A stretch of DNA of 64,000 nt from the NCBI RefSeq assembly GCF_003432115.1, contig NZ_QWDC01000003.1, positions 558,001 to 622,000 on the forward strand, written 5' to 3'. This document shows, in pieces, positions 20,245 to 45,743 of the stretch. The position numbers and the translations under genes were made by a program. How positions within the stretch are numbered: position 1 is the first letter of the stretch; each line of letters begins with the position of its first letter. The notes under the pieces are model-generated. The model was not told where the DNA came from, did no database searches, and saw only the letters and a program-made list of their open reading frames with translations. This DNA is from Mucilaginibacter conchicola (GTDB taxonomy: Bacteria > Bacteroidota > Bacteroidia > Sphingobacteriales > Sphingobacteriaceae).

Positions 20245-21207
20245 TTATCTCGTGTTTGTCCGGGCTTTTTTCTGCCTTCTCCGTCGCATGCCATGGATCT
20301 GCTGGTCGTCCACATCGTCAGCGATACTAACCGGTCCTATGCTGATCTGTGGTTCGAAGAGTTCAGAAAAACCCGTCTCCGCTTGCCTGCTTTCTACCGG
20401 GGCGGTAGTGAAAAAGTGATCATATCCCATTGTCAGTTCTTTAAGCGGCAATACTTCGCTGCCCTTAAAAACGATCTTATGCTGGTGATCAATGATGGAA
20501 TACCCATACGGCTTTTTTCCTTCAGCAGCATGGAACAGCAAGTCGATATCATAGTAATTTTTCATTATGCCAATCAGGTCATGCCGGTGTCTATACTTCA
20601 TCAGCAGCGAAGCGATCCTTGCTGCATGAGGTTTATCAGGGTGGTATTTTCCGGCCTTTTTCAGGACCTGCTTTTCATCAGGATCTGATCCCAAAAACCC
20701 TTTTGATTCAAGGATCATCAGAAACTGTGCAGGCGTACTGAACTCATACTGCATAGCCAGTTCATAACCCAGTACTTTTGACATATTGCGCTGAGCGCGA
20801 ACATGCTCGTAAGCGCTGCTGATCTTTTTACCATCAAACCCCACACGGCACGATACAAGGTGTACATGGTTATTACCGGTGTCCTTATGATACACGATCA
20901 GGTACGGCTGATCTCCATATCCCATTTCTTTCAGCCAGCTTTCCGCAATAGCGGTAAGTTCATTCTTATCGTAAGATCTTCCTTTCCCAGAGATCACTGT
21001 ATGAAACTGCGGCAGCCTGACATTTCTGTTCAGGGATGATAAGGCTGTCAGGTAGTTGATGTAATCCTGCGGCTTGAGATGCCCGAGCGATTGCATCGGC
21101 CCGAAATTGCGGGTCTTCATCAGTTCTCCTTTGTTCCGGTCAATTTTTCGGGTGTTATAGCTAACACCTGTAAAATTTGCTGATGGTGCCAGAATCTTTA
21201 CGATCAT
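20245..21207 (-). CDS. Relaxase / mobilisation nuclease (MobB-type)
   Basis: A 320-residue relaxase that nicks oriT and stays covalently bound to the 5' end. Catalytic Tyr is probably Tyr17 (GVSYN); the metal-binding histidine motif is YHKDTGNNHVHLVSC with His107, His114 and His116, plus His69 before it. The C-terminal third is basic and ends in RRRRQKKARTNTR. Bacteroidota MobB (MOBP-related) by pattern. It follows the methyltransferase gene by 27 bases. Confidence 0.88.
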   Translation of the reverse strand: MIVKILAPSANFTGVSYNTRKIDRNKGELMKTRNFGPMQSLGHLKPQDYINYLTALSSLNRNVRLPQFHTVISGKGRSYDKNELTAIAESWLKEMGYGDQPYLIVYHKDTGNNHVHLVSCRVGFDGKKISSAYEHVRAQRNMSKVLGYELAMQYEFSTPAQFLMILESKGFLGSDPDEKQVLKKAGKYHPDKPHAARIASLLMKYRHRHDLIGIMKNYYDIDLLFHAAEGKKPYGYSIIDHQHKIVFKGSEVLPLKELTMGYDHFFTTAPVESRQAETGFSELFEPQISIGPVSIADDVDDQQIHGMRRRRQKKARTNTR

Positions 21208-24348: not shown

Positions 24349-25188
24349 TCAGGAATTATCTTCGTCTGTTTTTCGGAGAATAGCTTCTTTCATGAGGTCG
24401 ATGAATTTTGTGATGCTAACACGCTTGCGGCGCTCGATCTCACTGAAGCGCCGCTGGATAATTCCGATCGAAACGTGAAAGTTGCTTTCAAGCCAGCGTA
24501 CGATCTGGTTTAGGCTGGCATTCCCATCGTTAAGCTGTCCCGTCAGCCAGAGGCCATAAGCGAGTTCAACAGCATTGACGGCATCACCCGTCCATTTCAA
24601 ATCGTTGTTCATCTGAGGGGATTTCACTAAAATGGATTCAGGGTACCGGATCATTGCAATCTGTTCCAGAAGGAAATACTGGATATTTTCGTAAGCCATA
24701 AATTTTGCGAACAGATAACTCATCGGGGTCGAAAACTCATTTTCTGTTTCCGAGAATTCCGACAGCGGAAGAGATGCGGCTCTGGCGCTCCGCAGGAAAA
24801 ATATCCGGTCAAGTTCGGTCAGGCTTTTCTTATAGTACTGGTAATGGAAACTGTTCATCCTGAAAAAGCTCCGCCTTGCCCTGAGTTCATCTTCCAGGAA
24901 TTTGATTTTATTCTCAGGTGTCCCGATAGGTATGTTGGAAGTGATATTGTAGCGCATGACCTCTTCGATCCGTCTGGCCAGCAGCTCCGGTTTCTGGACT
25001 TTGAAGAAAATGATCTCATCCGTTTCCTTTTCGAAAGCAGATCGTTCAACGGTCTGATTGATCTGTGTAATTGCTTTATCGATAACGGTGAGCAATTGTC
25101 CGAGTTTATCAATACCGGTTTCCATACTGTCGATTTCAAGGAGCTTTTCATTTAATTCATACCTGAGCATTTCGATGGTTTCTTTCAT
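24349..25188 (-). CDS. rteC: RteC-like regulator of the conjugative element
   Basis: A 279-residue helical protein of the RteC family: long N-terminal coiled-coil (ELNEKLLEIDSMETGIDKL), then FHYQYYKKSLTELDRIFFLR, and a C-terminal winged-helix-like part (SLNQIVRWLESNFHVSIGII, RRFSEIERRKRVS). In CTnDOT, RteC activates the excision operon. Here it follows a strong terminator and precedes the repeat region, ahead of the mob/tra block. Confidence 0.85.
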   Translation of the reverse strand: MKETIEMLRYELNEKLLEIDSMETGIDKLGQLLTVIDKAITQINQTVERSAFEKETDEIIFFKVQKPELLARRIEEVMRYNITSNIPIGTPENKIKFLEDELRARRSFFRMNSFHYQYYKKSLTELDRIFFLRSARAASLPLSEFSETENEFSTPMSYLFAKFMAYENIQYFLLEQIAMIRYPESILVKSPQMNNDLKWTGDAVNAVELAYGLWLTGQLNDGNASLNQIVRWLESNFHVSIGIIQRRFSEIERRKRVSITKFIDLMKEAILRKTDEDNS

Positions 25189-25223
25189 AGAGTAGAAGTT
25201 TAGTTGTAAAAATTCAGGACATA

Positions 25224-25259
25224 GCTGTTCCGCCCGGATTAGAAAATCCGGTGAACAGC
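25224..25259 (-). terminator. Intrinsic terminator of the C39 exporter operon
   Basis: Two-part stem: GCTGTTC (25224-25230) with GAACAGC (25253-25259) and CCGGATT (25234-25240) with AATCCGG (25245-25251). It begins 14 bases past the stop of the C39 gene and separates that operon from rteC. Confidence 0.65.
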
Positions 25260-25272
25260 AGGATATAAGAGC

Positions 25273-26652
25273 TTAAAGATCCCTGTACCTGCGCGCGAGT
25301 AGGGCACCCTCGGTTATCAGGGTGAAAGAGTTTATTATTCTTGGAACGAGACTGGTGACAAAAAGGGTAATGATCACGGCAGCCATAAGTCCGGTATAGG
25401 AAATATGATTGTCAGAAAGTTCCCATAAGCTGTAAACAAAGACAATAATTATATTCAGTGATCCGGCAGCATCGTACCAAAACGATGCTTTACTCATTTC
25501 AACGGCTGTCTTTTTTGAGCAGGTATGAAATTCCCGGTATTTTAAAATACTATCGGAAATGGTTTTATCCTGTTCGTTTTCGTTTACTTGTTGGATGTTT
25601 TCATCTATGAAACCTTTTTCGCAACTGCCCGAGAGTTCCGATAATACAGCATTTTTTGCTGCTGCATGAGGGGCTTTCATAAATGCGGTAAAAATCAGTA
25701 CGGCCAGGTAAATAACATTGATGATCCCTGTTATCGAGTCGTAGTATAACAACCCGGCAATAATAAAACTCACTAAAACGCCGTCAGATACAACAACAGA
25801 GATGAAAGCACTGAGGGCCTGCTGGATCTTCTGAAAATCGGATAACGTCTTTCTGATACCAGTCACTGAATCGCCGGCAATCTCAGATACCGGTCTTTTT
25901 CTATTGTTCAAATAATTAATATGCAGCTTTTTACTTACAGAACTGTTAACGTAGATCAAAATGTACTGACGAATATAGATAACGGCGTTCCGGAATAAAA
26001 TTATGAGAAATAGCATTGTAAGTATTTCCGAGAGGAACAAAGAAGAGTGTGCCGTAAAAGAGCCGTTCAATCCCTGCTGAAGTATCCATGAAACGGATAG
26101 CCCTAACAACGTTGAACAAATGTTCATGAATGGGAAGATCAGAAGAAGAACGCTTTTAAATCCGTTTATCTTCAACAGATTGAACCAGGGATGTCTCAGT
26201 TTAGACGGTGTTTTATCGAGATCTTCGAAGTAAAGTGCAGCGTTGTCATGCCATATCTGCGAAAGCTCGTCCTGTGATATCAGGATGATCCCGGTTGCGG
26301 GATCGGCAATTTTAAACCAATTTTTTTTTGAACGTTTAACAGACCCGAAGCATACTATAAAGTGGCTTAAATGAGCGTCTTTTCTTACCAAAAGGATACA
26401 AGGTTTGTCAAGATTGGACAGGAAAGATATATCCATTTGCACGCACCTGCTTTTCAAGCCGCTCGCATCGGATAACTGACGTAATTTCAATAATGATACA
26501 CCATCCGCTCCGGCGGTATTACCCGTAAGTAACTGATCAGCGATTTCGGGCTTTCCAGCGTAATTCAGCACAATGGCGAGTGCAGCGATCCCGCAGTCAT
26601 AAAGACTGTACTGATGTACAAAGTATTTGAGATATTGGTTCAGAGAGGTCAT
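25273..26652 (-). CDS. C39-peptidase/ABC transmembrane protein lacking the ATPase domain
   Basis: A 459-residue protein expected to cut double-glycine leaders and export the mature peptide. The peptidase C39 domain covers residues 1-130 with the oxyanion Gln14, catalytic Cys20 (QYSLYDCG), His97 (LSHF) and Asp117 (ADPATG). About five or six membrane helices follow (150-440), matching an ABC exporter transmembrane domain. The chain ends at 459 with no Walker A, signature or Walker B motif; normal exporters of this class have about 700 residues. The stop is followed at once by a terminator, so this is not a visible frameshift. It may use an ATPase in trans or act only as peptidase/channel. Confidence 0.8.
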   Translation of the reverse strand: MTSLNQYLKYFVHQYSLYDCGIAALAIVLNYAGKPEIADQLLTGNTAGADGVSLLKLRQLSDASGLKSRCVQMDISFLSNLDKPCILLVRKDAHLSHFIVCFGSVKRSKKNWFKIADPATGIILISQDELSQIWHDNAALYFEDLDKTPSKLRHPWFNLLKINGFKSVLLLIFPFMNICSTLLGLSVSWILQQGLNGSFTAHSSLFLSEILTMLFLIILFRNAVIYIRQYILIYVNSSVSKKLHINYLNNRKRPVSEIAGDSVTGIRKTLSDFQKIQQALSAFISVVVSDGVLVSFIIAGLLYYDSITGIINVIYLAVLIFTAFMKAPHAAAKNAVLSELSGSCEKGFIDENIQQVNENEQDKTISDSILKYREFHTCSKKTAVEMSKASFWYDAAGSLNIIIVFVYSLWELSDNHISYTGLMAAVIITLFVTSLVPRIINSFTLITEGALLARRYRDL

Positions 26653-26692
26653 ATCAAGTAGAGGCTTAAAAAATATTGATCAGCTAAAAGAA

Positions 26693-27334
26693 TTACGCAG
26701 CAGAAGGGAACATCAGCAGCGTGAAAAATGTGACACATACGATCCAGATCAGTAGTGACGGCACATAGGACATAGCCACCAGGTGCAGCGATCTGTCATA
26801 ATTCAAACCGGTAATCCGCATAATTCCATAACCCAGTACAAACCAGTACAGGATCTCAAACAGGTTAAAAGACTGCAGCGCATAATACCAGTCAGCAGGG
26901 ACGTCTTTGAAAAAGGAAAGGGCCGAAAAGATATAGTATTGATGCCAGTTCAATAAAGTCCCGTTCGGATAGAAATAAGAGAAAGTAGCAATTTTGACCC
27001 CTGCAGGTATCAGGAAAAGGAACTCAGCACACACCACAACCCTGAATACCCTGGATACAGGTATTTCATAGCTGTTCAGAAATAATGCAGTTTGCAGTAT
27101 CAGAGTGATACAGAGAAGTTTCAGGATCAGATATATGCCTGAAGTGATATAAATCCATTTCTGCATCAGTTCAAGAACAGAATTACCCCTGTCAGATATA
27201 TCTGTTAAAGTATGTCCGCTTCTTTCATAAAAATCAGGGGTTAATATCAGCCTGCCTGTCAGCCAGATAAGAAAAAACGATAAACAGATGAATAAAGTGA
27301 GGTGTAAAATGCCATATTTTGCCAAAATTTTCAT
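26693..27334 (-). CDS. Polytopic membrane protein of the bacteriocin-like locus
   Basis: A 213-residue protein from ATG 27334 with five or six hydrophobic helices (residues about 7-27, 55-80, 95-115, 165-185, 195-213). No family is recognised; the layout recalls Yip1-like or immunity-type membrane proteins. It is 40 bases upstream of the C39 gene and cotranscribed with it. It could be the immunity protein or an export partner; this is inference. The longer form from a TTG at 27382 is not needed. Confidence 0.6.
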   Translation of the reverse strand: MKILAKYGILHLTLFICLSFFLIWLTGRLILTPDFYERSGHTLTDISDRGNSVLELMQKWIYITSGIYLILKLLCITLILQTALFLNSYEIPVSRVFRVVVCAEFLFLIPAGVKIATFSYFYPNGTLLNWHQYYIFSALSFFKDVPADWYYALQSFNLFEILYWFVLGYGIMRITGLNYDRSLHLVAMSYVPSLLIWIVCVTFFTLLMFPSAA

Positions 27335-27379
27335 ACCCTTAGTTTTTTGGGTAAAATTCAGTTTGAACAGTGCCGTTGG

Positions 27380-27418
27380 CAATCACCTCTGATGTTAAAT
27401 TATTAGTTAAAGTGATTG
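27380..27418. promoter_or_regulatory. Inverted repeat in the divergent promoter region
   Basis: CAATCAC (27380-27386) and GTGATTG (27412-27418) are exact reverse complements 25 bases apart, in the 104-base gap between the divergent membrane protein and rhomboid genes. A regulator could bind here and control both directions. Confidence 0.35.
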
Positions 27419-27438
27419 TGTGTGTTAATTTACTTTCT

Positions 27439-28062
27439 ATGAAAACCTACCTTACCGATCCTTTTTCCTGGGAAGCACCCGTATCCGTTATGATGCTGGC
27501 AGTGATCTTGCTCAGCAGCCTATACGGTTTGTATAACCGCCGCTATTTTATGAAAATGATCCTTCATCCTTTCGGGATCGTCAAGAACAAAGAATATTAC
27601 AGGCTGTTCACCTCAGATATTATACATAATGATTACGGTCATTTAATGATGAATGCCATTATGTATTATCTGGTATGCATAAATCTTGAAGAGCATTTAA
27701 CAGAGCGGACGCAATTCGGCAGCATTTGGTTCATGCTGATCTACGCAGGCAGCTATCTTACGGGAGTGATGCTTGTCACATTCAGGCACAGAAATGATTT
27801 TGATTATTCCAGTGCGGGTGCTTCTGGAAGCATTATGGGATGCCTGATGAGTTTCATGATCCTGAAACCCGATTACATCGGACTTTATCTGCCCGTAATA
27901 GGAGGGATCAGAAATATTTATTTACCGCTCGTTTTTTTTGTAGCCATGTTCATTTATCAGTACCGTTCCAAAAACAAGTTAATGAACAACGAGCTTCACT
28001 TTTACAGTGCAGTCGGCGGGATCGCCGCAACCTTTGTGATATTTCCGGAGATAATAATCTAA
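27439..28062 (+). CDS. Rhomboid-family intramembrane serine protease
   Basis: A 207-residue protein from ATG 27439 with six membrane helices. Catalytic Ser129 lies in GASGSIMG and the general-base His187 in LHFYSAVGG; the oxyanion-side motif HNDYGHLMMN provides His63, His68 and Asn72. All active-site residues are present. Rhomboids cleave substrates within the membrane. It is divergent from the C39 operon and converges on the double-glycine peptide gene 26 bases away, so it may act on that peptide, its exporter or its receptor. Start at 27370 rejected: it is inside the promoter region. Confidence 0.85.
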   Translation: MKTYLTDPFSWEAPVSVMMLAVILLSSLYGLYNRRYFMKMILHPFGIVKNKEYYRLFTSDIIHNDYGHLMMNAIMYYLVCINLEEHLTERTQFGSIWFMLIYAGSYLTGVMLVTFRHRNDFDYSSAGASGSIMGCLMSFMILKPDYIGLYLPVIGGIRNIYLPLVFFVAMFIYQYRSKNKLMNNELHFYSAVGGIAATFVIFPEIII

Positions 28063-28087
28063 CGGGGCCGGAGCCCCGTCAGGATGT

Positions 28088-28255
28088 TTACCACCAACCG
28101 AGGCATGACGGGCCGGTCGCGGCTGCAACTGCGCCAACCAGAGCACCTGCTCCGCCGAAAAGACCGCCGAGTGAGGCAGACACTCCGATATTGTAAGCAC
28201 ACTGGCTTACCCCGCCTTTCAATTCTTCGGCATCAGAATCAGATAGATTTTTCAT
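28088..28255 (-). CDS. Double-glycine leader bacteriocin-like peptide precursor
   Basis: A 55-residue gene on the minus strand, ATG 28255 to TAA 28088. The leader MKNLSDSDAEELKGG has the features of C39-processed leaders: Leu and Glu spacing, LKGG end. The 40-residue mature part has Cys at mature positions 4 and 36 that could form one disulfide, a Gly/Ala-rich middle with GxxxG-type spacing (SLGGLFGGAGALVGAVAAA), and ends GWW. This matches class II bacteriocin-like peptides. A C39 exporter is 1.4 kb away. Divergent from the XRE regulator. Very likely real despite its size. Confidence 0.82.
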   Translation of the reverse strand: MKNLSDSDAEELKGGVSQCAYNIGVSASLGGLFGGAGALVGAVAAATGPSCLGWW

Positions 28256-28324
28256 AAAATTAAGTATGATTTAGATTTCTTCCCGGTATTGGGAATTGGG
28301 GTAAAATTGCTTTTACAGGCAGTT

Positions 28325-28341
28325 TTAAGCTAAAAGCTTAA
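28325..28341. promoter_or_regulatory. Palindromic operator candidate
   Basis: TTAAGCT-AAA-AGCTTAA, perfect 7-base arms, in the 137-base gap between the divergent bacteriocin-like gene and the XRE regulator. Its position suggests the site where the regulator controls both genes. Confidence 0.5.
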
Positions 28342-28353
28342 CTTGTAATTTAT

Positions 28354-28361
28354 TACTTTTG
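28354..28361 (+). promoter_or_regulatory. Bacteroidota -7 box (TAnnTTTG) for the XRE gene
   Basis: TACTTTTG matches the TAnnTTTG consensus exactly and lies 31 bases before the ATG at 28393. No clean -33 TTTG box at the usual distance was found. The palindrome at 28325-28341 covers that region, consistent with repression. Confidence 0.45.
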
Positions 28362-28392
28362 CTTATAGCATTAATTTGAATAAGGACTCGAA

Positions 28393-28725
28393 ATGAATCA
28401 TATCGGTGAGAAAATACGGATACAGCGGCTGACCAGAAACTATAGCCAGGAGTACATGGCTTTCATGCTGGATATATCGCAGGCAGCTTATTCAAATCTG
28501 GAAAGGGACGAGACGGAGATGACCATCAAGCGTATATATGAGATCGCTGAGATACTCGAGATATCGCCTTTTGAACTGATGCCTAAACCAAAATTCGGGG
28601 TCAGCATCGACCATTTGTTCTTCTGGCGAACCATCCGCAAATTCAGAGAGGTCTGGCTGGCCGGTGTTCGGGCCAGAAAGAAAGAAATCAAGCAGTTCAC
28701 TGGTAGCTACAGTGACACTTTATAG
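28393..28725 (+). CDS. XRE-family transcriptional regulator
   Basis: A 110-residue protein. Residues 1-62 are a Cro/C1-type helix-turn-helix (IGEKIRIQRLTRNYSQEYMA, SQAAYSNLERDETEMTIKRI); the C-terminal part is a basic, helical extension (WLAGVRARKKEIKQF). Divergent from the bacteriocin-like gene with a palindrome between them, so it is the probable controller of that locus. Confidence 0.85.
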   Translation: MNHIGEKIRIQRLTRNYSQEYMAFMLDISQAAYSNLERDETEMTIKRIYEIAEILEISPFELMPKPKFGVSIDHLFFWRTIRKFREVWLAGVRARKKEIKQFTGSYSDTL

Positions 28726-28779
28726 CTGATTATCAAATAATTTATAAGTAAAGGTTATAGCTAATGACCTGTAATTCCG

Positions 28780-28814
28780 ACACCTTTATCGCTGAAAATC
28801 AACGGATAAGGTGT
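28780..28814. promoter_or_regulatory. Inverted repeat upstream of small HTH gene
   Basis: ACACCTTTATC (28780-28790) and GATAAGGTGT (28805-28814) pair with one bulged base. The right arm ends two bases before the ATG at 28817, so the structure could hide the ribosome site or be an autoregulatory operator. Confidence 0.4.
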
Positions 28815-28816
28815 TT

Positions 28817-29023
28817 ATGGATTTCAGAACCTACGAGCAGCGGCTTGATTATATCTTGGAGCTTTTGCAGAAAGGCAGATTTCGTTCGCTCGGGGATACG
28901 GCGTCCCGCTTCGATTGCAGCACCCGTACGATAAAACGAATGCTGAATCATCTGCGTGAAAGAGGACACGATATCACTTACGATCGTCTTCAAAAAAAAT
29001 ATTTTCTCAAAAAAGAAGAGTGA
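28817..29023 (+). CDS. Small HTH-domain protein
   Basis: A 68-residue protein, almost only a winged helix of the HTH_11/DeoR type: YEQRLDYILELLQKGRFRSL, ASRFDCSTRTIKRMLNHLRE, then a short wing (HDITYDRLQKKYF). It lacks an effector domain. It is 50 bases upstream of the MauE gene and may regulate the MauE-DUF6520 and TlpA-SusCD genes. Confidence 0.75.
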   Translation: MDFRTYEQRLDYILELLQKGRFRSLGDTASRFDCSTRTIKRMLNHLRERGHDITYDRLQKKYFLKKEE

Positions 29024-29072
29024 CATTTTCTGTCCTCATGGCCCATATAACTTTGATTCAATAACAAAGGCC

Positions 29073-29510
29073 ATGAAAAAGATCAAACCTTATCTTATCG
29101 AAATTATCATTTTTCTACTGGTAATACTGTGGGTTTATACCGCTTCCAGCAAGCTGATCGATTATGGCAGGTTCAAGGTTCAGATGCATAACCAGACCAT
29201 TCCGCCTTTATTGGCCACAATTCTTATTTACACCCTTCCGGCAGCGGAGATCATTACGGCGATACTTTTACTGAACAAAAGCACAAAAGCCCTGGGATTT
29301 TATATCTCGGCAAGTCTGATGCTGGTATTCACCGCCTATATCGGACTGGTGCTGACGAATTTTTTTGGCAGGATACCTTGTTCCTGCGGCGGCGTTCTTC
29401 AGGTGATGAACTGGCCGGCACACCTTGTTTTTAATCTTTTTTTCCTGCTGTTGACTTTCTACGGATCATATCATGTTTACAGAGAAAGGAGGGACGCGCG
29501 AACATCATAG
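29073..29510 (+). CDS. MauE/DoxX-family membrane protein
   Basis: A 145-residue protein with four membrane helices (first at 7-25 and onward) and the cysteine motif PCSCGGVL near residue 110, typical of the MauE domain. MauE-type proteins take part in disulfide handling of exported proteins. I chose ATG 29073 (MKKIKPYLIEIIIFL); the frame upstream overlaps the HTH gene. It is followed by the Cys-containing DUF6520 protein, and a TlpA-like oxidoreductase lies nearby, so a shared thiol-redox role is plausible. Confidence 0.8.
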   Translation: MKKIKPYLIEIIIFLLVILWVYTASSKLIDYGRFKVQMHNQTIPPLLATILIYTLPAAEIITAILLLNKSTKALGFYISASLMLVFTAYIGLVLTNFFGRIPCSCGGVLQVMNWPAHLVFNLFFLLLTFYGSYHVYRERRDARTS

Positions 29511-29524
29511 ACTAAATGCTGCAT

Positions 29525-29546
29525 GGCGTACGGTAGCCCGGACGCC
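29525..29546 (+). terminator. Hairpin after the MauE gene
   Basis: GGCGT-a-CGG-tagc-CCG-g-ACGCC, a stem with one mismatch, 15 bases past the MauE stop. No U-run; it may only slow transcription or stabilise the message. Confidence 0.3.
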
Positions 29547-29645
29547 GTGAAAGGAGCAGCTGAAAACCTTAAAGAGTAAGCAAAAATCATTTTTTATTCA
29601 CTTAAAGTTTTTCAAAGTTTTTTGATCTATAAAAGCTTTTCTAAT

Positions 29646-29978
29646 ATGAAAAAGAATATTTTCGGAATTCTGGCCATCGCCATCGCAATCAGCGCAAGCG
29701 CTTTTACAAGCCCTTCTAAAACAGCCGTTAAAAGAACCGTAAACTACAAATGGTTCCTCATCTCAGGCAATATTGCGCCGACGACACCCGTACCAACTGC
29801 TAATGCAACTTATATCAGCGGTGCTGACGGACCGGATCAGCCGACCGAAGCACAAATGTGTCCGGGCGGTACCAGACAATGTGTTTCCGGTTTTGATCCA
29901 AGCAAGGTCACTACCTCTAACACCCTTAACGGGGCTCAGGTCTCTGATGTGCATACTGCATTAAGAGCGAATCAGTAA
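29646..29978 (+). CDS. DUF6520-family secreted small protein
   Basis: A 110-residue precursor from ATG 29646 with signal peptide MKKNIFGILAIAIAISASAF. The mature part has the family pattern with two cysteines (MCPGGTRQC, Cys72 and Cys79). Proteins like this recur beside MauE and SusC/SusD genes in Sphingobacteria; function unknown. A strong terminator follows directly. Confidence 0.78.
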   Translation: MKKNIFGILAIAIAISASAFTSPSKTAVKRTVNYKWFLISGNIAPTTPVPTANATYISGADGPDQPTEAQMCPGGTRQCVSGFDPSKVTTSNTLNGAQVSDVHTALRANQ

Positions 29979-29980
29979 AT

Positions 29981-30020
29981 AAAAGAAAGAGCTGCCTGAA
30001 TTCAGGCAGCTCTTTCTTTT
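29981..30020. terminator. Perfect 40-bp palindrome, bidirectional terminator
   Basis: AAAAGAAAGAGCTGCCTGAA is followed immediately by its exact reverse complement. It lies between the convergent DUF6520 and SusD genes and overlaps the first bases of the SusD stop codon (30019-30021). U-runs follow on both strands. Confidence 0.85.
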
Positions 30021-31392
30021 AATATCCCGGATTTTGGGAAAGATTCGGATTGGAATTCAACTCATAGACCGGAATAGGGTAAAGCGTAGAATTTAATGTA
30101 AGGTTTGGTTTTAACGGGGAAAGTACATTGATTGCTCTGCCGGTTCTCTTAAGATCCATCCACCTGTTTCCCCATTCACAAAACAATTCCGCACGTCGTT
30201 CCCGTTCGACAGATAATAACATCGACGATTTATCTGAAGCCTCAGTATTTGAGAGACCCGCGCGGTTGCGAATAAAGTTCAGGTCATCCTTCGCCGCGTT
30301 AATGTTCCCCAGGTTTGCTTCTGCTTCCGCTCTGATCAGGTAAAGTTCGGCCATCCTGAAAACCACATAATGCTCCGCAGGCGTTGTTGTAGTCGTTCTT
30401 ACTTTATATTTAAAAGGATACGGATAACTCTTTCCGCTTATCGTGTTCGTCCTGATCCAGTTGATCTTCCTGCTGTCTCCCTCTTCGAATGAATCATAAA
30501 GGCTTTGATTCAAAATATATCTTGGAGTTGCCGACGCACTTGCAGGAACAAAATAGAGGCCTTCATAGGTTGCCTGCTGGGGCACGACCGGCAAAATACT
30601 CCATATCGTTTCTGTACTTCCGGCAAGAAAAACATTGCCTGGATTGCTTTCAAGGGAGAATATTCCTGATGAGATCACTTTCCCCGTTTCTGCTATAGCA
30701 AGATCATACTTTCCTGTATACAAATAAACCTTAGACAGTAAAGCAGCCGCGGCGTAATATCCGGCCCGTGACCAGTCATGTGCATCAGGGCTCATGTTTT
30801 CCTCAGCGAACTTCAAATCAGAAATGATCTGCCCGTAAACCTGTTCAACCGAAGAACGGCTAAGCAGTTTTGTCTGGTTGTAATCCGCAGTAATAATTAT
30901 GGGCAGAGCACCATACAAATTCACAAGATTGAAATAGATCCAGCCCCGCAAAGCACGCAGTTCGCCTGTCATTTGCTGTTTCACCTTTGCTGGGATCCTT
31001 TCTGAGCCTGCAATGCCTTCGATACAGGCATTCGTACTGTAGATATACTTATAACCGAGAAGGAAAAGAGACTGGTTTTTTGCATCCGTAACCAGTATGT
31101 TATTATTGTAGAATGCCGCTAAGGAAGCATCGTTGAATGATATATTAAGTTCATCCGAGGACAGGCCGGGATATAAGGTCATTCCTCCGGCCAATAGCCC
31201 GAAAGAACCTGCCGAAGCGATTTGTGAATAGAGGCCTGTGATCGCTGCGTCGGCATTTAAACTATCCGCGAACACAGTCGCGGTTGTCAGCTGGTTTTTG
31301 GGGGCATCGATCTCAACGAATTTTCTGCAGGCAGTGAAACTGTGGATCATCGTTCCGGCCAGCAATATGATTATGGCATTTAACTTTTTCAT
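30019..31392 (-). CDS. SusD/RagB-family outer-membrane lipoprotein
   Basis: A 457-residue nutrient-binding lipoprotein that caps the SusC channel. Signal peptide with lipobox ending FTAC at Cys22, the SusD N-terminal pattern DAPKNQLTTATVFADSLNA, TPR-like helical body, and the C-terminal ERRAELFCEWGNRWMDLKR motif. Eleven bases downstream of susC. Substrate unknown; no glycosidase gene is near. Confidence 0.92.
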   Translation of the reverse strand: MKKLNAIIILLAGTMIHSFTACRKFVEIDAPKNQLTTATVFADSLNADAAITGLYSQIASAGSFGLLAGGMTLYPGLSSDELNISFNDASLAAFYNNNILVTDAKNQSLFLLGYKYIYSTNACIEGIAGSERIPAKVKQQMTGELRALRGWIYFNLVNLYGALPIIITADYNQTKLLSRSSVEQVYGQIISDLKFAEENMSPDAHDWSRAGYYAAAALLSKVYLYTGKYDLAIAETGKVISSGIFSLESNPGNVFLAGSTETIWSILPVVPQQATYEGLYFVPASASATPRYILNQSLYDSFEEGDSRKINWIRTNTISGKSYPYPFKYKVRTTTTTPAEHYVVFRMAELYLIRAEAEANLGNINAAKDDLNFIRNRAGLSNTEASDKSSMLLSVERERRAELFCEWGNRWMDLKRTGRAINVLSPLKPNLTLNSTLYPIPVYELNSNPNLSQNPGY

Positions 31393-31402
31393 AACTGAGG
31401 AT

Positions 31403-34400
31403 TTAAAGGTTAAGGTTGAATCCGAAACTGATCGATTTTAAAGGTGGTACACCATAAAAGTTCTGGGTTTCCGGATCGGTTCCTTTATAATTTGTAATGG
31501 TGAACAGGTTTTGTGCAGTTGCATAGACCCGTAAGCCGCGTAGCCCCAGCCTGCTGACTACCCGGGCGGGCAGATTGTAAGACAGGGTCGCTGTCTTGAT
31601 CCTGATATAGGAGGCATCACTGTAAACACCGCTTGAGGTTAAGAAATTTGAAGCTGTCGTGTATTCATCGTTATATTGGGAAGACAGCCTCTGGAACTCT
31701 GCCTGCTGTCCCGGTGTGTGCCATCTTTCAAGAAAAGATACCGGCAGATTGTATTCCTGCCCCGGCAAAAAAGAATAGACCTGAGCGAGGTAATTCATGC
31801 CGAGTTGCTTCTTGAATTCTGTAAAAACATCAAGCTGAAACCCTTTAAAGCTGAAGCTGTTCAACCAGCCGCCGTAGAATTTAGGGTCGGTGTTGCCAAT
31901 GATGCTGTAATCGTTGAGTTTTCCCAAAGATGCAGGTTCAGGAAAGGAAGTCAGCTGTCCGTTGGCACCGGTAAACTGGAAGAGACCTGTTTCCGGATTT
32001 ACGCCGGCATAACTGAATCCTGTTACGGAATTCACTGACTTTCCGATAAAGTATATCGTGGAATAGGTCGAGTTTGCTATGTCGGGGAAGGCGATGAGCT
32101 TATTTTTAGGGATGGTCAGGTTAAAAGTACTGTTCCAGTTAAATCCGTTCCCACGCAGGAGGGAGGCCTGCAACAAGATCTCCCAGCCTGAATTTTGTAC
32201 TACAGCGCCGAGATTTTCATAAACCGATGTAAAGCCGGTCTGGTCAGGCAGCTGTGTCGTTACCAGCTGGTTGCCTGTTCTGTTTCGAAACCAGGCCGCA
32301 CTCAATAATAACCTGTCCTGCAAAAAACCGGTCTCCAGGCCGATCTCCAGTTTTTTTGTACTTGCCCAGCTCAGTTGCGGGTTGTACAGGTTAACCGGTA
32401 TATATCCGGAATTACCGCCGTAGGGATATCTTGCCGGAGACCATCTCGACAGATACTGGTAATTGTCGATGGCGTCACTGCCGGTGATACCATAGCTGGC
32501 GCGTAACTTCCCATAACTCAGAAACGGGATCTTATTTTTAATCAGTGATTCCTCTGTGAATATCCATCCCGCGCCTACAGAGCCGAAATTCCCGAACTGC
32601 TTATCCGGACCGAAACGGCTTGACCCATCTCTTCGGCCGTTAATGTTTAACAGGTATTTACTGTCATATCTGTAACTGACCCTTCCGAAAACGGCGTTGT
32701 ACTTATACTCACTGAAAGCATCTGATGCTGTCGTGGTCGCTGCCCCCGATATAGAGCCGAGCAAGGCATCATTGATATAACCGCTGCCGGTGACGTCAGT
32801 GCGGTTAGAAGAATTGCGCTGAAAAGTTGTTCCGGCCAGAATGTCCAGGGCATGTTTGCCGCTTGTTTTGCGGTACTCCAGCTGCGGTTCGATGATCCAG
32901 GAGGATAAGTTGTTTACTCCGAACCGGGCGCTCGAAACGGGGTTCAGGTTCGGGCTTAAGGTTACTTTGGGGGTATTGGAGTATTCATTTGCTGAAAAGG
33001 TATTGTAACCAAGGCTTGTTCTGAAAGTGAGACCCTTTACAATTTCATAGGAGGTCAGCAGGTTTGCCGAAAGATTGGTACTGGTTATACTGTATGATCT
33101 TTTAAGATAGCTGAAGGGATTACCGCCGGCATAAGAGCCGTCGAGTATAACACCTTTGTAATCAAAAACGGGATTCCCCTTGTTATCGAGTAATTCGGGA
33201 CTGTTTGGCTCAAGTGTGAATGCTGACAGTACGTTTGGCGAACCGGATGAGTTGTTTTTATCGTAAGAGTAATTGGCTGTAAGATCGATGTTAAAACGTT
33301 TATCAGTTGAAGAATGATGAATGTTTGAAGAGAAGTTTGCACGGTTATCTGCGAAGTCGCCAGGAAATATGTACGTATCACGGTTGAACCCGCCGCCGAT
33401 CCGGAATTGTGTGTTCGTGTTGCCACCCGATACGGACGCGGAGGCATTCGTATTATGCGCAGTATTACCCAGCATGAATTTTTTCCAGTCCGTGTACCTG
33501 GTGGAGTCGAAAACGGTAAGATCAGGAGCATAGCCGGGATCATACAGTTCAGCGTTTGGCTCAAGTCCGTCATTGGCGAAAGCTTCCCTGCGCATAGCAA
33601 GGTACTGTTGTGTATTCATCATAGGCATGGATTTTCCCGTGAAGCTTACGCCGCTCCTTAAATTGAGATTAAAATCGGTCTTGCCAGCCTTACCTTTTTT
33701 TGTAGTGATCAGGATCACGCCGTTGCCGCCGCGTGAGCCGTAGATCGCTGTTGCATCGGCATCCCTGAGCACTTCTATGCTTTCAATATCCTGCGGGTTC
33801 AGGCTGTTGAAGGGGCTCATGCCCCCATAGCTGTTGTTGTATATGCCGCCGTCACCCGGCGCGCTGACGGAATTGTACTGGTTAATGTTGCTGTTCTGCG
33901 CAGCGAAGGGAACACCGTCAATAATGAACAGGGGATTGTCCCGGGGGCTGATCAGCGCGGAGCTTGCTTTCAGCGTATTCTGCCCCCTGACCTGAACGTT
34001 AAAAGCCGAACCAGGCAGTCCGCTTGTAGAGGAGATGGTCAGGCCGGGTACCCGTCCCTGCAAGGCCTCGAGCGGATTGCTTACGGCCTGTTTTCCGATA
34101 TCGTCGGCCGATACTTTTGTAACGGAACCGAGGTTATATCGCTGGGTATTCGTACCATAGGCGACGATCTGGATCTCATCCAGCTTACTGGTTCTTTTCT
34201 TCATGATGACCAGGATATCTTTCCTGTCCGTTACGTTCAGATCAACGGCTTCCATGTCGGCTGCGGTAAACCGTAACTGTGAACTACCCGAAACAAGGGC
34301 AATACTGAATTTTCCCTTATCATCGGTTGCCGTCTGTAGCCTCGTGCCTACCAGGGAAACTGTTATGCCGGGCAGGGGCTCATTATTTTGACTGATAACT

Positions 34401-34471
34401 TTTCCGGTGATGTTTTGTCCCAGACAAAATGCAGGGGCAAGCATCAGCAGATATATGAATATATACTTCAT
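31403..34471 (-). CDS. SusC/RagA-family TonB-dependent outer-membrane transporter
   Basis: A 1022-residue protein: signal peptide (ends CLGQ), carboxypeptidase-like regulatory domain (ITGKVISQNNEPLPGITVSL), TonB-box/plug with GSVTKVSADDIGKQ and IESIEVLRDADATAIYGSRG, then a 22-strand-type barrel. Full length. Partner of the SusD downstream and behind the TlpA-like gene in one operon. It has no anti-sigma STN domain, so regulation is not through an obvious ECF system. Confidence 0.93.
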   Translation of the reverse strand: MKYIFIYLLMLAPAFCLGQNITGKVISQNNEPLPGITVSLVGTRLQTATDDKGKFSIALVSGSSQLRFTAADMEAVDLNVTDRKDILVIMKKRTSKLDEIQIVAYGTNTQRYNLGSVTKVSADDIGKQAVSNPLEALQGRVPGLTISSTSGLPGSAFNVQVRGQNTLKASSALISPRDNPLFIIDGVPFAAQNSNINQYNSVSAPGDGGIYNNSYGGMSPFNSLNPQDIESIEVLRDADATAIYGSRGGNGVILITTKKGKAGKTDFNLNLRSGVSFTGKSMPMMNTQQYLAMRREAFANDGLEPNAELYDPGYAPDLTVFDSTRYTDWKKFMLGNTAHNTNASASVSGGNTNTQFRIGGGFNRDTYIFPGDFADNRANFSSNIHHSSTDKRFNIDLTANYSYDKNNSSGSPNVLSAFTLEPNSPELLDNKGNPVFDYKGVILDGSYAGGNPFSYLKRSYSITSTNLSANLLTSYEIVKGLTFRTSLGYNTFSANEYSNTPKVTLSPNLNPVSSARFGVNNLSSWIIEPQLEYRKTSGKHALDILAGTTFQRNSSNRTDVTGSGYINDALLGSISGAATTTASDAFSEYKYNAVFGRVSYRYDSKYLLNINGRRDGSSRFGPDKQFGNFGSVGAGWIFTEESLIKNKIPFLSYGKLRASYGITGSDAIDNYQYLSRWSPARYPYGGNSGYIPVNLYNPQLSWASTKKLEIGLETGFLQDRLLLSAAWFRNRTGNQLVTTQLPDQTGFTSVYENLGAVVQNSGWEILLQASLLRGNGFNWNSTFNLTIPKNKLIAFPDIANSTYSTIYFIGKSVNSVTGFSYAGVNPETGLFQFTGANGQLTSFPEPASLGKLNDYSIIGNTDPKFYGGWLNSFSFKGFQLDVFTEFKKQLGMNYLAQVYSFLPGQEYNLPVSFLERWHTPGQQAEFQRLSSQYNDEYTTASNFLTSSGVYSDASYIRIKTATLSYNLPARVVSRLGLRGLRVYATAQNLFTITNYKGTDPETQNFYGVPPLKSISFGFNLNL

Positions 34472-34511
34472 TGGGGCGTTAGTTTTAAGATGTGATTGTT
34501 TAGTAGTGCGT

Positions 34512-35783
34512 TCAGAATTGTGTAAAAACGAGATATTTCATCCGCCGCTTTTCTTTAATCAAAAGAATACCCTGCTTTTTAAGACTTGCTGTCAGCTTAT
34601 CTATATTTTTTACATCGGGCGGGAAGTCGAGTGATAAAACCTGACTATAGCCGGAATCGTCAAACACCGGGATATTTAATAGATTATCCAGTTCGTTCCT
34701 GAGGCCATCCATGTCGTATCCCCGGAAATATTTGGGAATATTTAAATGTTCGTTCAGGTTAGATTCCATTTTAATTTTAGCTGCAGTTTTTTTGGGACGC
34801 ACATCCGGATTGATCTTCAGTACGAAACAGGTTGTGTCCTTGTATAAAGTGTCGGCCTTTACCCGGAAGTACCTGTTGAGGTCATTTTCCATGATTTTTA
34901 ATGCTTCAGACTTAGATACAGCTGGAAAACTGCTTTGATAGGAATAAAAATGAAGATCCTTATTTGCCGTATCGATATCATTTGAAGGAAAATATTCCGG
35001 ATGGGGGATGTTATACTGGGTCCTGCTATCCGGTATGTCACCATATCCCGGATTCGCTGTTTGATAAAGCAGTTTCAGTACCATGTTGACCACAGTTATC
35101 TTATTAATTAAGCCGCGATCGTCGGTTTGAAATTTTTCATAAGCAATTACCGGCAGGCTGCCAGTAAAGTAAGTGTTGTAATGATCAGATAAATCAGAGC
35201 CACCGTTCACTTCCGAATACATGGGGCGATCAGGATCATAAGGTCTGTCGTTCTTTAATCGAAGTGAGTTGTAAGATCCATTCAGCGCTTGTTTAATATT
35301 TTCAAGTGTGATGTGTTCACCGTCTGTCACAGCTAAGACTTTGTTGTTTTTTAGGACTACGTAATGGGGGATAACCCTGTGCGGAAACATCTTAACCAAA
35401 GTCGTGTCAAGGTAGACGCAGGGCAACTGGTATTGGGATTTTCTTCGATCAAAGAAGATTTTCAGGTTTTCTTCATTGTCTCTGTTATGTTTTGCGCTGA
35501 CAAGCAGGATCTGCACCTGATCAGGGAATTTGTTTTGGATCGCAAAATTCTCAGGAAAATGAGCAATGCAGGAACTGCACCAGGTGGCCCAGAAATCCAG
35601 TATCAACAGCTTGTCGTTAAAATCTGAGATCTTTGCACTGTTACTGGAATAGCCCATGATTTTTGGGAGCATAACGTCAGGAATAGTATCACCTACTTTG
35701 TAGGCTTTTATTTTATCTTGAGCCAGGCCATTCACTGCCAAAAAAAGGCAAAGCGCGGCCATTAAGCGTAATTTAAGCTTCAT
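34512..35783 (-). CDS. TlpA-like thioredoxin-fold protein with long C-terminal extension
   Basis: A 423-residue periplasmic protein: signal peptide (ends GLAQ), TlpA domain at about 27-165 with active-site WCSSC in LDFWATWCSSCIAHFPENF, and the cis-Pro region RVIPHYVVL. The remaining ~250 residues are not recognised. First gene of the TlpA-SusC-SusD operon (40-base gap). Likely reduces or isomerises disulfides of secreted partners such as the DUF6520 protein. Confidence 0.82.
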   Translation of the reverse strand: MKLKLRLMAALCLFLAVNGLAQDKIKAYKVGDTIPDVMLPKIMGYSSNSAKISDFNDKLLILDFWATWCSSCIAHFPENFAIQNKFPDQVQILLVSAKHNRDNEENLKIFFDRRKSQYQLPCVYLDTTLVKMFPHRVIPHYVVLKNNKVLAVTDGEHITLENIKQALNGSYNSLRLKNDRPYDPDRPMYSEVNGGSDLSDHYNTYFTGSLPVIAYEKFQTDDRGLINKITVVNMVLKLLYQTANPGYGDIPDSRTQYNIPHPEYFPSNDIDTANKDLHFYSYQSSFPAVSKSEALKIMENDLNRYFRVKADTLYKDTTCFVLKINPDVRPKKTAAKIKMESNLNEHLNIPKYFRGYDMDGLRNELDNLLNIPVFDDSGYSQVLSLDFPPDVKNIDKLTASLKKQGILLIKEKRRMKYLVFTQF

Positions 35784-37981: not shown

Positions 37982-39100
37982 TTATAATATACTGGCTTCC
38001 TTAAGGCGGACGAGGGATATGAAATCTGCAAGGTTGATCAGGTCACTTTGCTGGGCTGTACTGAATGTTGTAAAATTTTCAGCAGGAATAACCAGTTGTA
38101 AGTTCGCTGCCTGCATTTGTTTCATTTGATTTATACTTATTGAAACATCCATCGTAACCAGATGCTTAGCCGGTATTCTCTCAGCTTCAGCTAAAACCTG
38201 GCGCCAGCGGTCTTTTAGTGTGGTTTTAACACCCAGCATCGTCAGTCCGCTCTCGGGAAACTGCGGATCTTTGTAAGCATTTGCAGACGGAAATAGAAAA
38301 TCAGGTTGGTTTCGGTTTTCAGTCATCGCGTGACGGATATAAGAAACTTTGTTTGCTTTAAAAATTACTTCGAGGTGCTGCTCGAATGAATGTCCTGCCC
38401 TGGATTTTCTTCTGTTAAGTACGCTCAGTGCAAAACGCAAAAAATTATCGGTCCTTTCTGAAGGATTACCAAAACCCGCCTCGAGTTGTCCGGCAATTAC
38501 GTGTTTTTCCATAATACGCATGAGCCCTTTTTCTCTTTTCCACCAGGCCATCAGTGCTTCATCAGGTGCATCTCTTGGTGATACATTTTTTACAGTACCG
38601 CGGCAGAATGCGGAAAAATCTGCCGTGGCCGGGAAACCATGAGGGAATCTGGCAAACATTTCCTCTGCATATGCTACGTCTTCATCAGGCAGCTCCATGT
38701 CAAGTGACTCAAGGATGTAACGTCCCGCATACCCTATATCCTGATGCTGCAGATTCAGATTCCGTACAACCATGAATTTACGTTTGGTCTCCTCAAGTCC
38801 GAAAAGATAAAGCAGCTGTTGTTCGGAAGTTGATCCTTCGGGCGAGATGATAACAACCAGTTCATTTTTGACAGTCTTCAGAAGTACAACGAGATCTCCC
38901 TCACCAGCCAGTGTTTGCACGATTTCGTTGTCAGAGTAATACAGCCTGAATTCGGATCTGTGCGGATGTTTGAGACGGTCGTCATTCCATGTAAAACGTG
39001 AAGGCGCAAAAACTGCCTGTCCTTCTTCATCCGGAAGATAGATCATGTTTCCCGGAAATTCCTGACGTTCTTCTCCAAGGACAGATGCGAACTTTTTCAT
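37982..39100 (-). CDS. EcoRII-like type II restriction endonuclease
   Basis: A 372-residue protein. The C-terminal domain (from ~215) is the EcoRII catalytic fold: Glu240 (HSFEQHLE), Asp267 (QPDFLFPS), Lys292 (VKTTLKDRWRQ) and Arg298, then HLVTMDVSISINQ. The Asp-to-Lys distance of 25 and Lys-to-Arg of 6 are those I recall for EcoRII. The N-terminal ~170 residues would be the DNA-binding effector domain. EcoRII cuts CCWGG. 125 bases downstream of mcrC; a methyltransferase lies 4 kb away. Confidence 0.85.
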   Translation of the reverse strand: MKKFASVLGEERQEFPGNMIYLPDEEGQAVFAPSRFTWNDDRLKHPHRSEFRLYYSDNEIVQTLAGEGDLVVLLKTVKNELVVIISPEGSTSEQQLLYLFGLEETKRKFMVVRNLNLQHQDIGYAGRYILESLDMELPDEDVAYAEEMFARFPHGFPATADFSAFCRGTVKNVSPRDAPDEALMAWWKREKGLMRIMEKHVIAGQLEAGFGNPSERTDNFLRFALSVLNRRKSRAGHSFEQHLEVIFKANKVSYIRHAMTENRNQPDFLFPSANAYKDPQFPESGLTMLGVKTTLKDRWRQVLAEAERIPAKHLVTMDVSISINQMKQMQAANLQLVIPAENFTTFSTAQQSDLINLADFISLVRLKEASIL

Positions 39101-39225
39101 CCATTGAAGGAGTGCTGATTAGAAGTGATCTCGGAAGCACTCAGCCTTTTTGCTGCAACCCCTGAAAAATAATCTGAAAGAGATACTGACATGAGGGAAA
39201 GATACGATAAAATCGAAAATCTGAA

Positions 39226-40572
39226 TCAGCCGGCTGTACTTTCAGCATTTAGCGATGCGGAGATTCCTGCAATCTGCGAAGAGGCATCAGCAGTCAGGTC
39301 AAAAGGAACAGCGAGCAGCCGCAGATGATTTTTTCCCTCTGTTGTTTCGTAATAAAACGGTTCAAGCGGTTTTCTGAAGCGGTCGTTCAGAGGATAAATA
39401 AGCAGGAGGGCCGGTTCTGAACTGTCGCCCGAATATTTGTGGCCATAAGCGTACATCTGATACATGTCCGCCTGACTGATCAGATAATTTCCGGTATGCT
39501 GATGCCCGTCGATGAGTTTCCATTTTGTATCCATTACGAAACAGCGCATCTCCGGATCCGCCGGTTCGGCATAGATGTCCGGACGGAGACCAAAGCGGCC
39601 CTTTCCCCGGTGACTGCTGACCAGAAAGAAACGGCGGTGCTGGGTGCTGATGTTCATATTCTGCAAATGCCTCCGGAAAAGCATGGCTATATACTGCTCA
39701 AAAAGTTGTTCCATCGGAAATAACATAGCGTGGCTTATACGGCTCCCCGCAAAAGGTGTGAAAGCATTTCCTCGGAGAAAGAGAGCAGACCACTCCAGTA
39801 TCCTGCTGTACGATGAAAATAATCTGGAAGTAACAGCAGACGCCCGCAGGTCAGCTTCCGTATCCGGAGAGGGAGGTACGTCAGCTATTGCACTGTCCAG
39901 CTGCCTCAGTGCAGTGCGGTTAGCAGGGGAGATGGTTATACCTGCAAGTTTTATCACTGCGGACCGGATGATGCGGTTGCGCGGAATGTCTGTACTGTAT
40001 TCGCTGGAGGATATATAAAATGAAGCCTTATTAACTGTATTGACCACAATATCCCTGCTTATCATCAGTCTGCCTTTCAGGTAAGGTGAGTTTTTCTCTG
40101 TACGGATATAATCTTTTTTCAATCCGTTTAGAATTACACGCCGGCATTCCGTTATAAAGGCGGAAATGAAAACTTCCAGCAGCGGATAGTTTTTCCGTAC
40201 GTCAAGGGAGGCCTGCTGAATGCTGATGAACGGTGTGTCGCGCAGTGCGGCAATCATCCTGATCAGGATTTCCTTACTTTTCGCAATATCAGTCTCACCG
40301 TCCGGTGACCATATTTTCGGTAATATTTCAATTACAGTACCGTCTCCGGTTTCGACCATCCCGGCATAATTTCTGGCTTGTATTACCTGTCTGCCCTGAC
40401 GCGTAAAAAGCCTGAAAGCTTTTTCAGCTACAGGATCTTTACCCTGAAATTCGAGCAGATAATCCCAGACCGCTTTAAAAGCGGTCTGGGGTATTACCGT
40501 ATCGCCCGTACGGGGTTGGGAACCTCCTGCCGCGATCAGCGTTCCGAATTCTTTTATCTGATAAACTTTCAC
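39226..40572 (-). CDS. mcrC: McrC, nuclease subunit of the McrBC methyl-directed system
   Basis: A 448-residue protein. The N-terminal domain carries the McrC pattern (RNYAGMVETGDGTVIEILPK), and the C-terminal PD-(D/E)XK nuclease is seen as RPDIYAE (Asp332) and VMDTKWK (Asp348, Lys350). McrC is stimulated by the McrB GTPase and cuts DNA holding modified cytosine. Start overlaps mcrB by 4 bases. It contains a long palindrome near its 5' end. Confidence 0.9.
   Translation of the reverse strand: MKVYQIKEFGTLIAAGGSQPRTGDTVIPQTAFKAVWDYLLEFQGKDPVAEKAFRLFTRQGRQVIQARNYAGMVETGDGTVIEILPKIWSPDGETDIAKSKEILIRMIAALRDTPFISIQQASLDVRKNYPLLEVFISAFITECRRVILNGLKKDYIRTEKNSPYLKGRLMISRDIVVNTVNKASFYISSSEYSTDIPRNRIIRSAVIKLAGITISPANRTALRQLDSAIADVPPSPDTEADLRASAVTSRLFSSYSRILEWSALFLRGNAFTPFAGSRISHAMLFPMEQLFEQYIAMLFRRHLQNMNISTQHRRFFLVSSHRGKGRFGLRPDIYAEPADPEMRCFVMDTKWKLIDGHQHTGNYLISQADMYQMYAYGHKYSGDSSEPALLLIYPLNDRFRKPLEPFYYETTEGKNHLRLLAVPFDLTADASSQIAGISASLNAESTAG
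40464..40490. repeat. 27-bp near-perfect palindrome inside mcrC
   Basis: CCCAGACCGCTTT (40464-40476), A, AAAGCGGTCTGGG (40478-40490): 13-base arms around one base. It falls at codons about 28-36 of mcrC. A hairpin this stable early in the message could lower McrC relative to McrB. Confidence 0.7.
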
Positions 40573-42761: not shown

Positions 42762-42866
42762 GATATGAATTTCTGTGGTTTAGCTGGTTATCAGATTGTT
42801 TCAACACACCTCTTATTTTTCCACTTTTTTGCTGCAGCGCCGCAGCATTTCCGCTATCTTTGAAAG

Positions 42867-45434: not shown

Positions 45435-45541
45435 TTATTGTGTTTAATGTGTTCACGTAATTACAGTCTGCCAAATAAACGTTTTTTTCTGAACGAAAGG
45501 AATTAACAAATTAACCAGATCTAATGTAAAGTTGAACAGGA

Positions 45542-45667
45542 ATGAATAATAGGTTCTTCCTTAATGATCAGCTCATTGATTTCTCGGGGTACGCAGAGAA
45601 TGCTATAAGAAATGCAGAGACCGCGACTTTAAAAAGATGGATATCTGGCAGTTGTTCCGGCTATTAA
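45542..45667 (+). CDS. Possible 41-residue peptide in the gap before the helicase gene
   Basis: ATG 45542 to TAA 45665-45667 reads through FFLNDQLIDFSGYAENAIRN and ends LKRWISGSCSGY; composition is protein-like and the end resembles a helix of a DNA-binding domain. It could be the start of a broken regulator. The remaining 45435-45743 shows nothing. Low certainty. Confidence 0.25.
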   Translation: MNNRFFLNDQLIDFSGYAENAIRNAETATLKRWISGSCSGY

Positions 45668-45743
45668 TATGGCTTCGGATTTGATTACTGTGGAAAAAAA
45701 TGGAGCGGGTTAAAGCAGGAAACGTATAATATTCCTTTTTTTA

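Follow-up and report, generated by a model that had tools for sequence, protein, structure and literature searches.

A double-glycine leader peptide gene of Mucilaginibacter in a five-gene module related by parts and layout to bacteroidetocin loci and mostly carried by conjugative elements

To what kind of system does a 55-codon gene with a double-glycine leader belong when it lies among the genes of a conjugative element in Mucilaginibacter conchicola? The gene is located in a stretch of 64,000 nucleotides, hereafter the window, to which all coordinates refer. The initial annotation proposed a bacteriocin-like peptide with a divergent XRE regulator and a C39 exporter nearby. The open reading frame is real and was found on the minus strand, which that annotation had omitted: read from 28255 to 28088, its 55 codons start with ATG and encode MKNLSDSDAEELKGGVSQCAYNIGVSASLGGLFGGAGALVGAVAAATGPSCLGWW, while the plus strand in the same frame is interrupted by stops. 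The claimed parts could all be read from the translation, namely a leader of 15 residues (MKNLSDSDAEELKGG) with a GG end and a mature part of 40 residues displaying two cysteines and a Gly/Ala core. The gene and its neighbours are as follows.

28393..28725, plus strand: XRE-type regulator of 110 aa, divergent from the peptide gene (HTH_3 match, 6.2e-12)
28088..28255, minus strand: GG-leader peptide gene, 55 aa (15-aa leader and 40-aa mature part with Cys19 and Cys51)
28059..28082, minus strand: terminator-like hairpin of 10 pairs, lying between the stop codons of peptide and rhomboid
27439..28062, plus strand: intramembrane protease of the rhomboid family, its gene convergent with that of the peptide (PF01694, 1.5e-15)
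26693..27334, minus strand: five-helix membrane protein of 213 aa, without Pfam or NCBIfam family, with relatives in bacteroidetocin-type loci
25273..26652, minus strand: C39 peptidase with a six-helix exporter membrane domain, 459 aa (Peptidase_C39, 2.4e-22), without ATPase domain

This arrangement recurred throughout a comparison set of 28 loci from 27 genomes (23 of them Mucilaginibacter), which are partly non-independent, L015, L027 and L029 being closely related and L036 and L037 being identical matches in identical places. Five genes formed a module of fixed order: XRE, peptide, rhomboid, five-helix membrane protein and C39 protein. The five-helix gene was present in 28/28 loci and each of the others in 27/28, XRE being absent from L084, the rhomboid from L075 and C39 from the 9.9-kb stretch of L025. 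XRE and rhomboid genes lay opposite to the peptide's strand in 27 of 27 loci each, and the five-helix gene shared that strand in all 28. The divergent XRE regulator was thus correctly recognised, and conserved homologues that share the leader and are accompanied by a C39 gene were encountered in 27 of the 28 loci, with C39 invariably on the peptide's strand (27/27) and in the same relative place. As the hairpin separates the stops of the peptide and rhomboid genes, the peptide is probably expressed as a one-gene transcript. At L180 (8768-9913), a transposase-like gene with winged-helix and rve integrase-core domains splits the rhomboid from the five-helix gene.

The peptide displayed no family match in Pfam, NCBIfam or PHROG at the limits used. 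Counting its own genome each time, it was detected in 11 of 201 genomes sampled across the window's family and in 23 of 149 Mucilaginibacter genomes, and a 12-row profile retrieved it from 4 of 395 genomes of a class-wide draw. All four of the latter were Mucilaginibacter, which makes this exact peptide family a narrow one. When named genomes were scanned with a pattern, 13 loci emerged (11 in Mucilaginibacter, one in Daejeonella and one in an unclassified Bacteroidetes genome), and none of 72,556 plasmid records matched. Residues C19, C51, P49, G37 and G41 were invariant in 28/28 loci, while Gly15 was encountered in 27 and Gly14 in 22. For the 37-codon core, mean pS was 0.73 and mean pN 0.16 (252 within-genus pairs, one near-identical pair having been removed), and the 23 pairs with pS < 0.6 displayed a median dN/dS of 0.20 and a maximum of 0.37. 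As judged from these substitutions, the gene is translated and under purifying selection. Mean within-genus identities (18-19 rows each, 17 for the primase, near copies and L073 being dropped) were 66 % for the peptide, 66 % for a 70-aa HTH protein flanking the module, 55 % for the primase and 53 % for XRE; the faster genes were RteC (43 %), rhomboid and five-helix protein (42 % each) and C39 (28 %).

Two features were recognised in the DNA between the divergent XRE and peptide genes.

28342..28364, minus strand: conserved block of the XRE/peptide divergent promoter region, holding a TAATAAWTTACAA-like motif
28280..28295, no strand given: 5-bp inverted repeat with a 6-base spacer (TTCCC-n6-GGGAA), 25-40 bases ahead of the peptide start codon

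The block was conserved across 21 aligned loci, and about half of the loci tested also had the TAATAAWTTACAA-like motif between their divergent rhomboid and five-helix genes. This operator-like motif, picked by eye from the same sequences it was scored on, attained p < 0.05 against shuffled letters in 17/20 XRE/peptide regions and 11/20 rhomboid/five-helix regions (20 loci; eight of the 28, L025, L027, L029, L037, L073, L075, L084 and L180, were omitted). Over 23 aligned rows (L029, L037, L180, L181 and L182 left out), the inverted repeat was paired in 94.8 % of 115 cells versus 81.6 (sd 1.8) in shuffled and at most 68.7 in slid versions, and 14 cells were altered on both sides versus 4.0 (sd 1.8) shuffled and at most 7 slid; relatedness alone can raise these two measures. 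The number of pairs altered on both sides was three and unexceptional, being reached in 140 of 500 shuffles and found in four of six slid versions. Pairing was retained via compensatory changes across loci, and the repeat may be either a DNA operator or an RNA hairpin. A free search allowing G-T pairs retrieved the repeat in 27/28 loci and was discarded as too permissive, having settled on a different site in several of them. The Bacteroidota -7 motif is TAnnTTTG; it was rejected as promoter evidence for the XRE gene, the exact pattern occurring in just 13 of the 28 loci.

The exporter announced by the initial annotation was recovered only in part. Its C39 peptidase domain is present, but the gene is not adjacent to the peptide (rhomboid and membrane protein lie between) and lacks an ATPase domain, which makes it an incomplete ABC exporter. 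Peptidase_C39 was the sole Pfam match of the window protein at E 0.1, and NCBIfam exporter models aligned to it only up to about position 430 of about 700. Its predicted structure (mean pLDDT 80.6) matched PCAT1 with a TM-score by query of 0.72 and an rmsd of 5.5 over 459 alignment columns including gaps. The catalytic Gln, Cys, His and Asp were conserved in 27/27 copies, whereas the ATPase domain was missing from 25 of them. These 25 genes were single open frames of 451-505 codons, and the ends of 16 aligned ATPase-less proteins agreed within a few tens of residues. Two remote relatives, L023 and L024, retained the domain (688 and 691 residues, with an ABC_tran match in L023). BLAST searches with their ATPase domains as queries revealed no such domain among 579 window ORFs, nor elsewhere in the other module stretches (up to 18 kb each). 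Twenty-four places in the window's own genome matched a separate-gene ATPase at E <= 1e-10, none of them inside the window's range. The ATPase-domain label changed at least twice on a quick tree with long branches. In two loci of other families (L120, 6776-8944; L134, 7000-9150), the C39-membrane domain and the ATPase domain are encoded by two adjacent genes, which may represent an intermediate on the way to the motorless form. The other C39 gene of the L026 genome (5184-8958) is a long one, its 753-aa frame matching the ATPase domain, and a candidate GG-leader peptide is encoded nearby.

The longest frame of the rhomboid gene begins at 27370 and its first ATG lies at 27439. Rhomboids cleave helices rich in small residues, and the Ser and His dyad was retained in 26 of 27 module copies, the exception (L073) being split by a frameshift. 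Four further rhomboids were detected in the window's genome, so the module copy is an extra one; a tree did not show the module rhomboids to be one clade set apart from another, ordinary rhomboid (201 aa) in that genome. Nothing on a rhomboid paired with a double-glycine peptide in Bacteroidetes was encountered in the literature searched, from which subscription papers are mostly excluded.

The model of the five-helix protein displayed five long helices (mean pLDDT 85.5) and found no match in a fold search against the PDB (best E 3.6). A Pfam identity for its family was also rejected, a scan of 12 members having given six families with one member each. A profile of the family matched in 33 of 300 genomes of the order, 16 of which were without the module peptide (L077-L083 and L085-L093). 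At 14 of these 16 peptide-free loci a C39 gene with ATPase domain was found, once in split frames; L087 displayed the ATPase part alone and L090 neither C39 nor ATPase. All 13 peptide-free loci that were viewed (not L087, L089 and L090) harbored a same-strand gene of 167-189 codons together with at least one GG-leader candidate. When four genes of this type (from L025, L077, L119 and L135) were compared to Pfam, three matched redoxin/thioredoxin above the cut-off and one below. A wider five-helix profile reached 22 of 395 genomes of the class, and 18 five-helix loci examined outside the family included eight with a thioredoxin-like gene, eight with C39 and nine with neither. At L135 the order was five-helix protein, GG peptide with four cysteines, thioredoxin and C39-ABC. 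Weak matches to the profile of the module peptide came from two GG peptides of L082 (1e-4 and 2e-4) and one of L121 (5e-5). The frequent association of the family elsewhere with GG peptides, thioredoxin and C39-ABC ties the module to bacteroidetocin-like layouts. A rhomboid profile revealed no rhomboid beside the five-helix gene in the other loci (L077-L083, L085-L093 and L119-L136), and a lone remote match in L092 had different neighbours.

Three further arrangements were observed around this family. L121 (3403-4806) displays a row of six GG-leader candidates, belonging to at least two types, ahead of a five-helix protein, a thioredoxin-like gene and C39-ABC. Nine five-helix relatives (L125-L133) are without C39 or thioredoxin-like gene nearby, and eight of these come from a single family (f15) within the class. 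L025 (6018-9616) harbors the rhomboid/peptide/XRE trio as well as two more GG-leader candidates, a five-helix protein and a thioredoxin-like gene, and thereby seems to combine both kinds of locus, with no C39 in its 9.9 kb.

Bacteroidetocins are proposed class IIf bacteriocins, whose genes are ordered as five-TM protein, GG peptide, thioredoxin and C39-ABC (Coyne 2019, PMC6671954). According to the accessible part of that paper, full activity requires the five-TM protein, which confers no protection; the published loci lack an immunity gene, and most, though not all, regions encode a thiol oxidoreductase (PMC6671954). BamA is their target (PMC8546649), and the accessible text of a RiPP mining study in Bacteroidales held nothing contrary to a bacteroidetocin-like reading (PMC10352776). 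The module shares with this class a 15-aa GG leader (15-16 aa in the class), a mature peptide of 40 aa (35-50 aa in the class) with at least two cysteines, and the association of a C39 peptidase with a five-helix membrane protein in one locus. The correspondence of the five helices of the model to the five-TM protein is drawn from helix count and locus layout. In contrast to bacteroidetocin loci, the module is without a thiol oxidoreductase. With a profile, the bacteroidetocin-type thioredoxin was found within 3 kb in L025 only and at 6.5-7 kb in L015, L027, L029 and L030, and it was not found in the other 23 of the 28 loci, window included; the window encodes a thioredoxin-domain protein of a different kind at 34512-35783. 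The module also differs by its additional rhomboid and XRE genes, its alternating strands and its carriage by conjugative elements. Since its C39 protein is without the ABC ATPase, a defining part of the class, the module was not classed as a bacteroidetocin. It is a relative of bacteroidetocin loci by parts and layout. The bacteriocin-like interpretation of the initial annotation therefore held for the architecture, by way of the five-helix family and the bacteroidetocin layout; it had missed the ATPase loss, the rhomboid and the conjugative element.

Other known systems resemble single parts of the module. C39-containing ABC exporters such as PCAT1 have the C39 domain and the six-helix membrane domain in common with the module protein, but also possess an ATP-binding domain, which only L023 and L024 kept among the 27 module copies. 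In lactic acid bacteria, self-protection by CAAX/Abi-family proteases accompanies bacteriocins. The module likewise displays an intramembrane protease gene beside a GG peptide, although its protease belongs to a different family, the rhomboids, and its protective role is putative. An integrative conjugative element of Riemerella anatipestifer, also from Bacteroidota, carries a C39 exporter as cargo; it is described with an ABC domain, and neither peptide gene nor rhomboid is mentioned in the accessible part of that report (PMC6491836).

Three genes of the window situate the module relative to its element.

24349..25188, minus strand: RteC-family gene adjoining the module (homologue in 23/28 loci)
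20245..21207, minus strand: relaxase of the conjugative element
28811..29023, plus strand: 70-aa HTH protein on the other flank of the module (homologue in 23/28 loci)

The window further encodes TraM, DUF4134, a TraG P-loop protein, a coupling protein and a NikA/MobC-like protein, which together with RteC and the relaxase make the element CTnDOT-like. Of the 28 stretches examined, 20 included a primase-like gene and 18 a relaxase. In the 23 peptide-bearing genomes of the genus, a relaxase (E 1e-30) lay within 11 kb of the peptide in 20 and at 45 kb in two, and the remaining genome displayed no relaxase match on its 11-kb peptide contig. In 23/28 loci the module is beside RteC, mostly inside a conjugative element. 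Seven stretches with relaxase and primase (L173-L179), selected for peptide absence, had no rhomboid, five-helix or C39 profile match; the element consequently does not need the module, which it carries as cargo. Outside the genus, five loci from four genomes displayed the peptide, with RteC, primase and relaxase absent from the stretches examined.

A MauE-like gene was near the module in 26/28 loci and also occurred without it in L176, L177 and L178. In the window, the segment beside the module (28956-35783) encodes MauE, a weak DUF6520 match below the cut-off, SusD, a SusC-like TonB receptor and thioredoxin-domain proteins, and comparable genes flank the module in most element copies. A defence-like island (37982-48986) comprises an EcoRII-C type endonuclease, an McrBC component, an AAA protein, a Vsr nuclease, a C5 methyltransferase and a SNF2/PLD-domain helicase. 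No tRNA gene was found in the window.

Our preferred reading, held tentatively and with a little less than even confidence, is that the locus is a remodelled bacteroidetocin-like system, carried as ICE cargo, with a rhomboid most likely for self-protection and a peptide directed against competing Bacteroidota. The existence and conservation of the gene, the module around it, the retained catalytic residues, the lack of an ATPase domain and the conjugative element were all observed, and from these we infer the following activities. The XRE protein would control two divergent promoter regions, as their partly shared motif suggests. Cleavage of the 55-aa precursor after Gly-Gly would fall to the PCAT-like membrane protein, whose cytoplasmic C39 domain has kept its catalytic residues, and the mature 40-aa peptide would contain one disulfide (Cys19-Cys51) and a Gly/Ala-rich hydrophobic core. 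The five-helix protein would help to pass it to the envelope. Because the ATPase domain of the C39 protein is gone, transport would depend on an ATPase acting in trans or proceed without ATP. In such a system the rhomboid would most likely act in self-protection or processing, and in the former case it would cut peptide that had entered the producer's own membrane, whereas released peptide would target competing Bacteroidota.

Several observations speak against this preferred reading. Active export is left unexplained by the absence of an ATPase domain from 25 of the 27 C39 genes or their surroundings. The peptide is more conserved than XRE, rhomboid, membrane protein and C39, unlike the usual arms-race picture. 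A needed protector should not be absent, as in L075, or split, as in L073. The bacteroidetocin-type thioredoxin is missing within 3 kb in 27/28 loci, and the published loci, without an immunity gene, also argue against it. A more specific pathway, free of a motor and borne by the element, was considered as well: the PCAT-like protein would act as a membrane-anchored leader peptidase or passive conduit, a dedicated rhomboid would cut the same peptide within the membrane and one XRE switch would govern this two-protease microprotein system. This is conceivable, though doubtful.

The peptide could instead be a signal of the element, reporting the presence or density of element-bearing cells to XRE or RteC and thereby tuning transfer or blocking redundant transfer. 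Such a role would agree with the flanking RteC and 70-aa HTH genes and the relaxase counts given above, as well as with the strong conservation of the peptide and the divergent position of XRE. It appears unlikely when set against the lack of a histidine kinase among the 12 window genes given to Pfam (24349-35783), the 110-aa XRE protein matching HTH models only, the five peptide loci of other genera without RteC, primase or relaxase, and the seven module-free stretches (7/7), to whose elements the module was dispensable.

Two proteases could also act successively in maturation, C39 removing the leader and the rhomboid cutting the hydrophobic core to yield a product of fewer than 40 residues, in which case the rhomboid would be no protector. 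The rhomboid accompanied the peptide in 27/28 loci and was found beside the five-helix gene in none of the other loci searched, and a different release route would be needed without ATPase. What makes this sequence of cuts improbable is that GPSCLGWW, which would follow such a cut and includes the second cysteine, is among the best conserved parts, so that the whole peptide seems to matter, and that L075 is without rhomboid. Decay of an old bacteriocin locus, whose exporter lost its motor and whose peptide export ended, might be read from the ATPase losses, the fast divergence of C39, one split and one absent rhomboid and one absent XRE, but is very unlikely given a peptide pN far below pS, retained catalytic residues in C39 and rhomboid, and ATPase-less C39 genes that are single open frames of 451-505 codons, 16 of which, aligned, end close together.

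No immunity gene is known from bacteroidetocin loci, and the role of their membrane protein is unexplained. The module keeps the family of that protein, is without ATPase and thioredoxin, and in almost all copies displays a rhomboid whose catalytic residues are intact. It offers a compact system for gene-by-gene study of motorless peptide delivery and of the action of an intramembrane protease on a bacteriocin-like peptide, and it connects the production of small peptides with the dissemination of conjugative elements among soil Bacteroidota.
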